This document shows, piece after piece, positions 46,896-63,783 of a stretch of 64,000 nucleotides of DNA. Both the position numbers and the translations under genes were made by a program. The DNA comes from Gimesia benthica (GTDB taxonomy: Bacteria; Planctomycetota; Planctomycetia; Planctomycetales; Planctomycetaceae), in NCBI RefSeq assembly GCF_009720525.1, contig NZ_CP043930.1:496001-560000 (forward strand). Direction: 5' to 3'. Every line of letters starts with the position of its first letter. Positions within the stretch are counted from its first letter, which is position 1. The notes below the pieces were generated by a model. That model worked only from the letters and a program-made list of their open reading frames with translations. It did not search any database and was not told where the DNA came from.

Positions 46896-48032
46896 TCAAT
46901 GGGCTATAAGAGCCATGATTTCATCCGCCACCTTCCGGGAAGCCTCGGGCAGGGCCAGCTTCTGCATGGCCACAGACAATGAATTCCGTTTCGTAGAATC
47001 ATGCAATAATTCGACCACAGCAGTCTGTAGATTGCGCGCGGTCACTTCGGCATCAGCCATCTGCTCTACCAGTACCGCAGCTCCTTCTGCCTCATAGAAT
47101 TGAGCATTAATCAGTTGATGATCACCGATCGAATTTGGGTAGGGAATCAATAGCGTCGGACACCCCGTACAGGCCAGCTCTGCCAGAGTCGTAGCTCCCG
47201 CCCGCGAAATCACCAGATCGGCCTTTGAATACCATTCCGCCAGATCATCAATAAAGGGTTCAACGGTTACGCGCAATTCGGAATCGTGTTCCTGAAGATT
47301 CTGATATTCCTGCACCGCATACTTCCAGTCTGTCTCACCTGTCTGATGCACGACATGCAGTCTGCGAGGCAGGGCATCTCGCCCTCGTTCTAACAAAGCG
47401 AGTACCGCCTGATTCACCGCTCGTGCCCCCTGGCTGCCACCTAGAACCAGCAACAATATCTCTGATGGTTCACTCTTTTGGTTGGTCTCAAAATGCGTCA
47501 TCTGCTCACGCACTGGATTACCAGTAAAAGCAATCAAAGGCTTTCCAGAGCGAGGCTTGGGAAGACGGGTTTCGGCAAACGAAGTACAGATAACATTGGC
47601 GCGAGAGAACAGAAACCGGTTGGCTCGACCGGGAATGATGTTCTGCTCTAACAATACAATCGGAATATTAAGCCAGCTGGCAGCCAGAATCACAGGCACA
47701 CTGGCAAACCCGCCCAGTCCAATCACCGCAACCGGTCGTTCCGCACGCAAAATCCGCCGCGCCTGCAGACAGGCACGTCCGTTATTCCAGAAGAATCTCC
47801 ACGGAGCGCTTTTCAACTCATTACTGGGAGAAGAAGCCAGTCCGAGATGCTGATACCCCGAACGTTCTATAATCTGCTGCTCGACCGGTCGATTGGAACC
47901 AATAAATGTAATCGAAAAGTCGTCCATTAAGGCGAGTTGTTCTGACACCGCAATTCCGGGAAGCAGATGACCGCCAGTGCCACCGCCGGCAAAAATAAGA
48001 GATCGTTTCTTAAGACGGGATTCGGTCATCAT
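46896..48032 (-). CDS. murG: UDP-GlcNAc:lipid I transferase MurG
   Basis: MurG turns lipid I into lipid II at the inner face of the cytoplasmic membrane. The 378-residue protein has the donor/acceptor motifs of the family: AGGGTGGHLLPGIAVSEQL near the N-terminus, LGGSQGARAVNQ in the middle, and SRAGATTLAELACTGCPTLLIPYPNS followed by GDHQLINAQFYE. The length is normal. It is the last gene of the murein cluster, 76 bases after the ftsW stop. Planctomycetes were long thought to lack peptidoglycan; later work showed it in several members, and an intact MurG fits that view. Confidence 0.97.
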   Translation of the reverse strand: MMTESRLKKRSLIFAGGGTGGHLLPGIAVSEQLALMDDFSITFIGSNRPVEQQIIERSGYQHLGLASSPSNELKSAPWRFFWNNGRACLQARRILRAERPVAVIGLGGFASVPVILAASWLNIPIVLLEQNIIPGRANRFLFSRANVICTSFAETRLPKPRSGKPLIAFTGNPVREQMTHFETNQKSEPSEILLLVLGGSQGARAVNQAVLALLERGRDALPRRLHVVHQTGETDWKYAVQEYQNLQEHDSELRVTVEPFIDDLAEWYSKADLVISRAGATTLAELACTGCPTLLIPYPNSIGDHQLINAQFYEAEGAAVLVEQMADAEVTARNLQTAVVELLHDSTKRNSLSVAMQKLALPEASRKVADEIMALIAH

Positions 48033-48108
48033 TGTGGACGCTACTGGACAAGGATTTCAAACTGAGATCAGACAGCTCAGCATAGAACATGTCATAGGAA
48101 AATCCCAG

Positions 48109-49542
48109 TCACTCTTTTTCCAGCTCTTCATCCTCATACTCTTCATCCTCGTACTCTTCATCCTCGCACTCTTCATCCTCGCACTCTTCATCCTCGCACT
48201 CTTCATCCTCGCACTCTTCATCCTCGCACTCTTCATCCTCGCACTCTTCATCCTCGCACTCTTCATCCTCGCACTCTTCATCCTCGCACTCTTCATCCTC
48301 GAATGCTTCATCCTCGAATGCTTCATCCTCGAATGCTTCGTCAATTGGAAGATAGGACACTGACTGATCAATGGCAGGTTCAGGATCACCTGACTGATCC
48401 AGGGCAGGATCGATCTGCAGACTTTCATCTGTTCCCGCGCGTGTTAAGCTGACAATAATCCCCAATGAAAGTAGACTGACCATCAGGTTCGTTCCGCCAT
48501 AACTAATCAGAGGGTGCGAAATCCCCTTGGGTGGAACCATAGCTGTGACGACGGCCACATTGATAATTGCCTGCAACACCAGCTGCAGCAAAAGTGTAAA
48601 ACCCGCAACATAGGCAAAAGACTTCTGATTCTGGGAACGCAGAATATTGAACCCGGCCAGGAACAGCCCGATCCAGAGACCTGCAATTCCCAAGGTACCA
48701 ATCAACCCCAGCTCTTCACCGGCAACAGAAAAGACAAAGTCAGTATTCGCTTCGGGAAGAAAGCTGAGCTTTTGCGCTCCTTTGCCCAGACCGGAACCAC
48801 TGATTCCGCCAGCCCCCAAAGCCATGAGAGACTGTTTCAGCTGGTATGGCGCCGATTGCCAGTCAGTCCAGGTATCTACAAAACCGGTGATACGTTTCAA
48901 CTGATAAGGCCGCAATGCCACCAGCATTCCGACCGCAGGAATCGCACATAATAGACCTAACATAAAATTACGAAGAGGCCAGCCACCGAGGAACAGAGAC
49001 AACGCCACGCCCCCCACAAGAAACAGCGAGGTTCCCAGGTCAGGCTGCTTCAGCACCAGTGGAATCACGAGGAGCAGGGGAACCAGCAGCGGAATTGTGC
49101 CTTTCCACCAATGGTTTAAAAACGCCCGACGCTGGACCATCAATCGCACAGTCAGCAATGGCAAAGCGATCTTTGCCAGCTCGGAGGGCTGCAATGAAAC
49201 AGGCCCTAATCTCAGCCAGCGCTGAGCACCATTCACCCGCGTCCCGACTCCCGGAATAAGTACCAGCACCAGCAATGCTACGGTTCCCCAGAAGAGCAGG
49301 GGCGCACGCTCGTACCAGAATCGGGCTGGCAGCATGGAAGCAATTGAGGAAACTACAACCGCCAGAGCTAGAAAGGTCAGGTGTCGGGACAGGTAAACCT
49401 GCTCAAACTCGGTAGGCCAGGACGTAATACTGGCACTATGTACCATTAACACCCCGATCCCCAGCAGCGCGCAAGCCATCGAGATGAACAGGCTGCGATC
49501 ATGATCAGGCTGAGTTTGCGGCAGGAGTGAGGTAGGTTTCAT
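48109..49542 (-). CDS. ftsW: FtsW/RodA-family SEDS glycosyltransferase with repeat-encoded acidic Cys-rich tail
   Basis: SEDS proteins polymerise lipid II into glycan strands. The N-terminal ~390 residues have ten hydrophobic segments with family motifs LQPSELAKIALPLL, KQPDLGTSLFL, the catalytic-loop TDFVFSVAGEELGLIG, and PPKGISHPLISYGGTN. The final ~75 residues are unusual: EDEAF and EDEEC units (nine EDEEC in a row), then EDEEY, EDEEL and EKE. They come from a 15-bp tandem repeat in the DNA. The tail is cytoplasmic and strongly acidic with nine cysteines, and it is not part of normal FtsW. It may vary in length between strains. The gene sits between mraY and murG; no murD precedes it, though canonical clusters have murD there. 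Confidence 0.93.
   Translation of the reverse strand: MKPTSLLPQTQPDHDRSLFISMACALLGIGVLMVHSASITSWPTEFEQVYLSRHLTFLALAVVVSSIASMLPARFWYERAPLLFWGTVALLVLVLIPGVGTRVNGAQRWLRLGPVSLQPSELAKIALPLLTVRLMVQRRAFLNHWWKGTIPLLVPLLLVIPLVLKQPDLGTSLFLVGGVALSLFLGGWPLRNFMLGLLCAIPAVGMLVALRPYQLKRITGFVDTWTDWQSAPYQLKQSLMALGAGGISGSGLGKGAQKLSFLPEANTDFVFSVAGEELGLIGTLGIAGLWIGLFLAGFNILRSQNQKSFAYVAGFTLLLQLVLQAIINVAVVTAMVPPKGISHPLISYGGTNLMVSLLSLGIIVSLTRAGTDESLQIDPALDQSGDPEPAIDQSVSYLPIDEAFEDEAFEDEAFEDEECEDEECEDEECEDEECEDEECEDEECEDEECEDEECEDEECEDEEYEDEEYEDEELEKE
48121..48345 (-). repeat. 15-bp tandem repeat array within ftsW (about 15 units)
   Basis: Plus-strand units are CAGCTCTTCATCCTC (1), ATACTCTTCATCCTC and GTACTCTTCATCCTC (1 each), GCACTCTTCATCCTC (9 identical), GAATGCTTCATCCTC (2) and GAATGCTTCGTCAAT (1 degenerate). 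The nine identical units (48166-48300) are at the centre, with diverged ends, the usual sign of recent expansion. The unit length is a multiple of three, so gains and losses keep the frame. Confidence 0.95.
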
Positions 49543-49783: not shown

Positions 49784-50890
49784 TCAGGTTGCAATTTTCA
49801 GACTGGCAACAGCAATAATCGCCAGCAAGGCGGAACAGATCCAGAAGCGAACCACAATCTTCATTTCATGTTCGCCCTTGAACAGGAAATGATTGTGCAG
49901 AGGACTACAGGCCAGAATGCGGTTTCCGGTTCGCTTATACCAGAACACCTGCAGCATCACACTCAGTGTCTCGACAACAAAAACGCCGCCGGCAATCACC
50001 AGTAAAGCCTCCTGTCGAATGACCAGCGCCGCAAACCCGAGTAGCGCTCCCAGAGGCAGGGAACCGGTATCTCCCATGAAAACCTGGGCTGGATAACAGT
50101 TGAACCAGAGAAATCCAAGCACCGCCCCCACGGCTGCTCCCAGCAGAATGCTGAGTTCACCCGCCCCGGGAATGTAGGGGATTTGTAGATATTCTGCCAT
50201 CACCTTGTGTCCCGCCAGGTACGTCAGGCCGGCGAAAGCAGATCCGGCAAACACCATACACCCACTGGCCAGTCCATCCAGCCCATCAGTCAGGTTGACA
50301 GCATTGGAACTCCCCGTCATGACCAGCATCGCCCAGGGAACGAACAGAATTCCGAGGGGAAACACCAGACGAGTGACCGGCATGATCAGATCCAGGCCCG
50401 CTGGAACCGTTGAATGACTGTAACACAGAGCAGCCCCAATCAATGCAGAAAAGATTAATTGCACAATCAGTTTTTGCCGCGGCTTCAGACCATTCTGTTT
50501 GGTACTCAGCTTCACCCAGTCATCATAAGCCCCCAGCAGCCCAAATCCCGTTGCCGTCAACAGACCGAGTTGCACGTAGCCACTGGAAAGATCCGCCCAG
50601 AGCAGACCGGAGATCAAGATTGCTCCCACGATAAAAATGCCCCCCATTGTCGGGGTTGCATTCTTGGAAGCATGAATTTCATTGAGCTTTTCCGAGGCGC
50701 TGTCGATTCGTTCCCGGAAACGTTTTTCCAGCCAGCGAATCGCAAACGGGCCGAGTAGAATCGCGATCAGAAATGAAGACAGGCTGGCCAGCGCAATGCG
50801 TGCAGTCAGAAACACACGCGAATCGCCCGTGGAGAGCACTTCCAGTTTTTCCAGCAGGGGAGAAAAATGATTCAACAGCCAAATGATCAT
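49784..50890 (-). CDS. mraY: Phospho-MurNAc-pentapeptide translocase MraY
   Basis: MraY makes lipid I from UDP-MurNAc-pentapeptide and undecaprenyl phosphate. The 368-residue membrane protein has the loop motifs of the family: [20 protein letters not shown] (active-site Asp pair), [10 protein letters not shown], and a final [11 protein letters not shown]. The last motif is normally H-H-H (as in PIHHHFE), and the middle histidine is Asn here. The helix count (about ten) is normal. It lies between murF and ftsW. Upstream (minus strand) is a 226-bp gap with a hairpin; downstream is a 241-bp gap where murD might be expected, but there is no gene. Confidence 0.97.
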
Positions 50891-61734: not shown

Positions 61735-63783
61735 TCAACGTCTGCGGCGTTGACGCTTCCCTTTTTTACCGCCCCTGCCGGATGATTTTCCTGACGCTGA
61801 CTTGGTTGCTTTGCCTCCCGACTTTTTCAGATCGTCAATTCGGTCTCGCAGGAGTGCCGCCCGCTCGAACTCCAGTTTCTCCGCTGCTTCAAGCATTTCA
61901 CTTTCCAGTTCATTGAGAAACTCCTGGGTAATGTATTCTGACTCGTCCGAAAAGCCGACTGACTCCCGCACAAACTGACGCGCCTCGATTTCGTCTTCAA
62001 TCCCCCGCTTAATCGCTTTGCGAATCGTTTCCGGAGTGATGTTGTGCTCGCGGTTATACTCTTCCTGAATCGCGCGGCGGCGTTCCGTTTCCTCAATCGC
62101 ACTCTGCATACTGGGAGTCACTCGATCTGCATAGAGAATCACCTCAGCATTCACATGTCGTGCCGAACGCCCGATTGTCTGAATCAGACTTGTTTCACTT
62201 CGCAGAAAACCTTCCTTATCTGCATCCAGAATGGCGACCAGTGACACTTCCGGAATATCCAGTCCTTCGCGCAACAGGTTAATCCCCACAACCACATCAT
62301 ACTTCTGCTCGCGGAGCCCCCGCAGAATTTCAACCCGCTCAAAGGCATCAAGTTCAGAATGCAGCCATGCGCAGCGAATGCCTTCTTCCTGAAAATAAGA
62401 CGACAGATCCTCCGCCAGCCGCTTGGTCAGGGTCGTTACCAGCACACGCTCATTTACCTCCACCCGCTTGAGAATTTCTTCCTTCAGATGAGGCACCTGA
62501 CCGCGAGCCGGGACAATGCGTATCGCAGGATCAATCAACCCCGTGGGTCGAATGACCTGTTCAACAACTTCCCCCTCAACGCGTTCCAGCTCCCAGTCGC
62601 CTGGTGTCGCGGAAACGAAAACAGTCTGCTTACGGCGTTCGTTCCATTCTTCGAAGGTGAGAGGCCGGTTATCGAGAGCCATTGGCAACCGGAATCCATG
62701 ATCGACCAGGTTTGTCTTACGCGAACGATCCCCGGCAAACATGGCTCGAATCTGAGAGACTGTTACGTGCGATTCATCTACGAACAACAGGAAATCATCA
62801 GGAAAGAAGTCCAGCAGTGTATCCGGTGGGGAACCTGGTTTTCTGCCCGCCAGAGCACGGCTGTAATTCTCGATACCCGGGCAAAAGCCAACCTCCTCCA
62901 GCAGTTCCATATCGTAGCGGGTCCGGGCACTGAGCCGCTGAGATTCCAGCAACTTCCCTTCGCTCTGTAACACCTGCAGCCGCTCATCCAATTCTGTCTG
63001 AATCTCTTTGATCGCTGATTCAATCCGTTCCTGCGGAAGAACAAAGTGCTTGGCAGGGTAAATGTAGGCCTCGTTGACCGTTCGTAATACCTCGCCCGTC
63101 AAAGGATCAATGATCGCCAGGTTTTCGATTTCGTCTCCCCAGAACTCGATCCGATAGGCGAACTCTTCATATGCTGGCCAGCATTCAACTACGTCTCCAC
63201 GTACGCGAAACCGGGCTCGCGCCAGTTCAACGTTGTTGCGATCATACTGAATATCTACCAGTCTGCGGAGCATATCATCCCGGTCAATCTCCTCTCCCAC
63301 ACGCAGGGGAATCATCATCTCCAGGTAGTCTTTGGGTGACCCTAAACCATAGATACAACTCACGCTGGCAACCACGATCACGTCCCGCCGACTGACGAGT
63401 GCACTGGTCGCAAGAAGCCGGAGTCGATCAATCTCATCATTGATCGAAGCGTCTTTCTCAATATAAATATCGCGCTGCGGGATATAGGCTTCCGGCTGAT
63501 AGTAGTCGTAATAACTTACGAAATAAGTGACCGCATTATTCGGAAAGAACTCTTTGAATTCAGAATACAATTGCGCTGCCAGAGTTTTATTGTGTGAAAG
63601 TATCAGAGCAGGACGTCCCAGTTCTGCGATCACATTGGCCATTGTGAACGTTTTACCAGATCCGGTCACCCCCAGCAGAACCTGGTCAGACTTGCCTTCT
63701 TTGATGCCTTTCACCAGTCCATCGATGGCACGGGGCTGATCCCCCGAAGGTTGAAAGTCACTCTGTAACTGAAACACGGACAT
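61735..63783 (-). CDS. uvrB: Excinuclease ABC subunit B (UvrB)
   Basis: UvrB verifies damage and loads UvrC in nucleotide excision repair. The 682-residue protein is complete: [13 protein letters not shown], Walker A GVTGSGKT (about 38), the damage-probing beta-hairpin [31 protein letters not shown], helicase motifs such as [28 protein letters not shown] and [17 protein letters not shown], and a C-terminal UVR domain ([24 protein letters not shown]) that contacts UvrC. A basic Lys/Arg/Gly tail follows. It converges on the UvrA-like gene; no uvrC is in the window. The 217 bp after its start to the window edge contain no gene I can support. Confidence 0.98.

Follow-up and report, generated by a model that had tools for sequence, protein, structure and literature searches.

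A coding minisatellite of variable length gives FtsW of Gimesia a strongly acidic, predicted disordered tail

What does a homologue of the SEDS glycosyltransferases do with a long acidic C-terminal tail, and which property of that tail is kept while its length changes? The question is raised by the ftsW gene of Gimesia benthica, which lies in the 64-kb stretch of DNA that was analysed as a whole (hereafter, the window). The gene and its neighbours are as follows.

46896 to 48032, minus strand: murG, 76 bp downstream of ftsW (open reading frame; PF04101 and PF03033)
48109 to 49542, minus strand: ftsW, encoding a 477-aa SEDS glycosyltransferase homologue with an acidic C-terminal tail (open reading frame; PF01098; AlphaFold2 model)
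49784 to 50890, minus strand: mraY, the upstream neighbour of ftsW in a dcw-type cluster (open reading frame; PF00953 and PF10555)

Residues 19-368 of the product match PF01098 (FtsW/RodA/SpoVE family; E = 1.2e-86, profile positions 4-352 of 356), and this match, together with the place of the gene between mraY and murG, identifies it as ftsW. The gene order mraY - ftsW - murG is a dcw-type neighbourhood that sets ftsW apart from RodA, and a RodA-like paralogue (33% identity, with a 15-aa non-acidic tail) is encoded by a separate gene. Within the motif PEANTDF of an extracellular loop, D268 is invariant across 34 alignment rows, and we take it to be the catalytic aspartate, as in E. coli FtsW. 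Its putative role would be that of a glycosyltransferase acting with a cognate PBP. All 15 RodA-like paralogues that were read have the same short, 15-aa non-acidic end, and on these loci we reject a paralogue that shares the acidic tail.

The tail is produced by a tandem array of 15-bp units, which the initial annotation had described as an in-frame repeat able to expand, its core identical and its edges diverged. This description agrees with the sequence: the interval is filled without remainder by 15 units, each of 15 bp, that keep the reading frame of ftsW on the minus strand. In the order of translation, the array and the end of the gene read as follows.

48121 to 48345, minus strand: the whole 15-bp in-frame tandem array, 15 units, namely one IDEAF, two EDEAF, nine EDEEC, two EDEEY and one EDEEL (sequence and Tandem Repeats Finder)
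48331 to 48345, minus strand: IDEAF, the first unit of the array (sequence)
48301 to 48330, minus strand: two EDEAF units (sequence)
48166 to 48300, minus strand: nine identical GAGGATGAAGAGTGC units, encoding EDEEC (exact matches)
48136 to 48165, minus strand: two EDEEY units (sequence)
48121 to 48135, minus strand: EDEEL, the last unit (sequence)
48112 to 48120, minus strand: EKE, the end of the tail after EDEEL; the ending EDEELEKE is common to the nearest relatives
48109 to 48111, minus strand: stop codon of ftsW (sequence)

The nine EDEEC units are identical at the level of DNA: an exact search for GAGGATGAAGAGTGC gives 9 hits in the window and none in each of 100 shuffles. The flanking EDEAF and EDEEY units that had been annotated on either side of this core are both present, but the first unit of the array is IDEAF and the last is EDEEL. 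Tandem Repeats Finder gives the array a period of 15, 13.9 copies, 97% matches and a score of 353, and the single other row that it reports in the 64-kb window has a score of 42. In another frame, from 48057 to 48428 on the minus strand, the array reads as an open basic repeat, (MKSAR)n, which arises because the acidic units dictate it.

The composition of the tail is extreme. After residue 368 there are 109 aa, among which 65 are D/E, 1 is K/R and 9 are Cys. The net acidity of the last 40 residues is 30, while the next gene reaches 12 and the median is 0, as measured over 312 genes called in 464 kb of the G. benthica genome (the window plus 20 sampled stretches). An AlphaFold2 model, made with 34 orthologues, is helical to about residue 367; residues 381-477 have pLDDT below 50 and almost no secondary structure. 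We describe the tail as a disordered polyanion, strongly negative in its composition and with no fold in the predicted model. By analogy with the SEDS family, it probably lies on the cytoplasmic side of FtsW. Elsewhere in the window, a UvrB-like ORF (61735 to 63783, minus strand; named by eye) has a strongly basic tail end.

The array is a constant feature of the Gimesia group. Among the 17 genomes searched, a 15-bp acidic array was present in all 14 whose ftsW tail is readable. It is complete in 12 of them, where the unit number ranges from 4 to 27; in L013 and L015 a contig end cuts it. No ftsW orthologue was found in the three remaining genomes (G011, G013 and G015), which are drafts of 590-1020 contigs. 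In G016, the second half of the broken ftsW array sits on another contig, suggesting that draft assemblies break at the array. G015, one of the drafts without a detectable ftsW orthologue, has a divergent SEDS copy (L016, 29% identity); its matched stretch contains an in-frame TAG, and its ending is HVE.

Outside the genus, FtsW of other Planctomycetaceae resembles that of Gimesia in its core, with 40-64% identity, and differs from it in its end. FtsW was matched in 99 family genomes outside the genus, and 64 of their tails were read: all of these lack an array, extend 4-73 aa beyond the last helix and contain no more than 13 acidic residues. This supports the premise of the initial annotation that FtsW usually ends soon after its last helix. 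Likewise, no array was found in the 77 non-genus loci among 80 loci from named records. In the FtsW tails of L046, L047 and L138-L141, a motif resembling GHV-N(V/L)P occurs twice, another possible short repeat. As the Gimesia genus forms a single clade with a support of 100/100, the array most simply arose on the stem of the genus.

A run of three units was matched in 17 of 397 genomes of the class, of which 13 belong to the Gimesia genus and 4 do not. Every three-unit match in Gimesia falls at ftsW (the extra match of G016 is the other half of its ftsW array), which speaks against a mobile or genome-wide element, and we reject that possibility. A plasmid search gave no match to the array, with a low-complexity filter that may hide such DNA. 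The four non-genus matches are in an FtsK (G413), a ferritin-like protein, a short acidic protein and a 2-oxoacid dehydrogenase E2-like protein; these names were read by eye, with only FtsK backed by a profile (gamma domain, PF09397).

The number of units changes between close relatives. At 98.2% identity of the ftsW core DNA, one pair of genomes differs in unit number (22 vs 25); a second pair, at 96.9%, has 14 and 9, and a third, at 96.2%, has 14 units in both genomes, with the variants in a differing order. Copy number moves faster than the ftsW gene itself, and the variation in copy number that had been suggested for strains is seen here among relatives, with no sign of a fixed number in the range of 4 to 27. 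The unit variants are grouped in runs, forming locally homogenised patterns, which is what slippage or unequal exchange would give. The array is a coding minisatellite, restricted within the family to this genus, whose unit number varies among related genomes, each species being represented by one genome.

The units themselves vary in a biased manner. Positions 1-4 of the 162 interior units comprise 648 residues, of which 643 are D/E, a count that is favoured by the rule of accepting a unit only when three or more of these positions are acidic; the same rule leaves out the IDEAF unit of the window (14 units counted vs 15 in the sequence), and the interior-unit analysis also dropped two edge units per array. 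Codons 1-4 of the interior units display 11 synonymous vs 5 nonsynonymous variant types (p about 5e-6), and with edge units included the figures are 19 and 20 (p about 4e-6), the expected synonymous share being 17% at kappa 2 (transition weight 2); both p-values are optimistic, that is, too small, because the arrays share ancestry. Homogenisation alone would spread synonymous and nonsynonymous variants alike, and the excess of synonymous variants argues against it.

This excess bears on the main alternative, in which the repeat undergoes near-neutral drift: FtsW would be dispensable, its disordered end would tolerate insertions, and a slippage-prone 15-mer would persist under weak selection against harmful (e.g., hydrophobic or basic) sequence. 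The unfixed copy number is consistent with such drift, as is the local homogenisation of units, which unequal exchange predicts. Moreover, ftsW of Planctopirus limnophila was deleted without a growth defect, according to the available parts of two reports (PMC6952346, PMC10632474), and a dispensable FtsW suggests that its tail may matter little. Drift accounts less well for two observations: every one of the 14 orthologues that could be read has the array, in a genus whose ftsW core DNA identity goes down to about 80%, and the acidic codons show a synonymous excess. We consider drift possible but rather unlikely.

Our preferred reading, to which we give about an even chance, is that the tail is a disordered cytoplasmic polyanion that changes its length by whole repeat units, is selected for charge, and acts electrostatically in a cell without FtsZ. 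Repeat gain and loss, through replication slippage or unequal recombination, would proceed in steps of exactly five codons, lengthening and shortening the disordered and strongly negative cytoplasmic tail. Selection would hold the four acidic residues of each unit, with looser constraint on unit number and on the residue at position 5. The flexible polyanion might then dock FtsW on charged partners, or keep it off them, through weak and multivalent contacts within a division and shape apparatus that works without FtsZ. Since the tail ranges from 4 to 27 units, a precise length cannot be needed.

The setting of this proposal is given by the gene content of the genus. A search with TIGR00065 detected FtsZ in none of the 17 Gimesia genomes and in 13 of 14 control genomes. 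The mechanism by which planctomycetes divide in the absence of FtsZ is an open question, as stated in the available part of a study of P. limnophila (PMC6952346). An acidic contact in the divisome has a precedent in M. tuberculosis, where C-terminal acidic residues (aspartates) of FtsZ are needed for the contact between FtsZ and FtsW, according to the portion available of one report (PMC3989709). The two cases are alike in having acidic residues at a C-terminus, placed in M. tuberculosis in a divisome contact; they differ in that the acid is on FtsZ in M. tuberculosis and on FtsW in Gimesia, where FtsZ was not found. In a cell that lacks FtsZ, an acidic FtsW either has some other partner or has no partner at all. 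MurG was considered as a basic partner and rejected: its net charge is -6 to +9 in 13 Gimesia, vs a median of +4 in 44 others, and a MurG that is not more basic in Gimesia is not a favoured partner.

FtsK, too, has an acidic end in Gimesia. In all 17 genomes (L214-L230), a conserved tail after the gamma domain has 9-10 D/E among its 20-21 residues and typically ends in EEEYEEEFV; its net acidity is 8-9, vs at most 6 in all 93 loci of other family genera. From an FtsK search that matched 59 genomes, 29 new loci were read, with one tail per locus. In genus g110 (family f5), to which G413 belongs, an acidic FtsK tail of 38-161 aa is present in all 22 loci from 21 genomes (L231-L252), and the FtsK of G413 itself carries EDEEYEDEEYEDEEY, very like the FtsW units. 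PF01098 was found in only 1 of the 22 genomes of this genus, one with 8% contamination, and FtsK in 21; the genus appears to lack SEDS proteins. These FtsK tails resemble the FtsW tail as acidic, aromatic-containing ends of a membrane division protein, and differ from it in being on FtsK and in being mostly without regular repeats. The acidic tail of FtsK may use the same kind of contact as that of FtsW.

An FtsW with a comparable charge was found in a distant planctomycete family (L422, from G490). It has a hyperacidic C-terminal extension of ~500 residues (D+E minus K+R = 227 over 520 aa) and is the one such case among 37 loci beyond the family that were read, 20 of them picked for long frames, from a phylum search with 119 matching genomes. 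The extension is non-repetitive save for short patches, without a regular 15-bp array, and its sequence is unrelated to the Gimesia tail; in keeping with the initial annotation, no distant SEDS protein was found to share the Gimesia tail. Acidic tails are seen on other proteins as well, as 3 of the 4 non-genus matches to the array are not division proteins (read by eye). Furthermore, the FtsW and FtsK tails of Gimesia do not together constitute independent statistical support, because the origin of the genus is a single event. The acidic tails of FtsK and of the distant FtsW are leads, not proof. Literature searches covering titles and abstract openings returned no paper on acidic or repeat FtsW tails in planctomycetes, and none on acidic FtsK tails in this setting.

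There are two further hypotheses. In the first, charge acts by repulsion, with an acidic brush that would hold FtsW off the polyanionic nucleoid or ribosomes and bias wall synthesis to the bud, standing in crudely for nucleoid occlusion where FtsZ is absent. The extreme negative charge, variable length and predicted disorder of the tail would suit a brush, and FtsK, a DNA handler at the division site, likewise ends acidic; the anionic inner leaflet, however, would repel the tail equally, and repulsion gives no positional information by itself. We regard it as improbable. The second, on which we would place little weight, is that planctomycetes dividing without FtsZ have repeatedly used acidic C-terminal tails as a tethering tag, with separate origins on Gimesia FtsW, Gimesia FtsK, the FtsK of the genus that appears to lack SEDS proteins and the FtsW of the distant family, all of them binding a single basic scaffold that takes over the organising role of FtsZ.

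The fifth residue of the unit bears on the function originally suggested for the tail, in which its nine spaced cysteines would bind metal, crosslink or sense redox. Cysteine is present in 10 of the 14 arrays, with up to 18 copies in G001, yet 4 of the 14 (L009, L010, L012 and L013), from two separate parts of the tree, are free of it. Position 5 of the 162 interior units is C in 73, Y in 42, S in 36, F in 5, P in 5 and H in 1, and since the fifth codon is mostly T-N-C, a single base change converts Cys, Tyr, Ser and Phe into one another. With the position interchangeable and no cysteine conserved across the arrays, we reject a cysteine function, which we now think very improbable. The Cys-free arrays, the interchangeable fifth position and the acidic positions 1-4 indicate that charge is kept, not thiols. 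Selection acts on charge rather than on Cys, and sensing of metal or redox state is a less likely role for the tail than action via its charge. A role at the level of DNA or mRNA, for instance in murG translation or as a recombination site, could draw on the array ending about 90 bp before the start of murG and on the GAGGATG string within each complete GAGGAT unit, but it is hardly credible given the variation at synonymous sites (GAG/GAA, GAT/GAC), both inside single arrays and from one array to another, and given that 4 to 27 copies always give an acidic reading.

For the disordered polyanion that we favour, electrostatic action is the most likely function, and we infer both this mechanism and any link to FtsK. 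In P. limnophila, the available part of a published study reports that ftsW can be deleted with a shape change only, giving rounder cells, and that ftsK appears essential (PMC6952346); an effect of the tail is thus likelier on shape or on the placement of wall synthesis than on viability. The selected, charged tail of FtsW and the acidic end of FtsK would offer two baits for the missing cytoplasmic organiser of these cells, and the arrays of 4-27 units provide a natural length series in which the effect of tail length may be followed.
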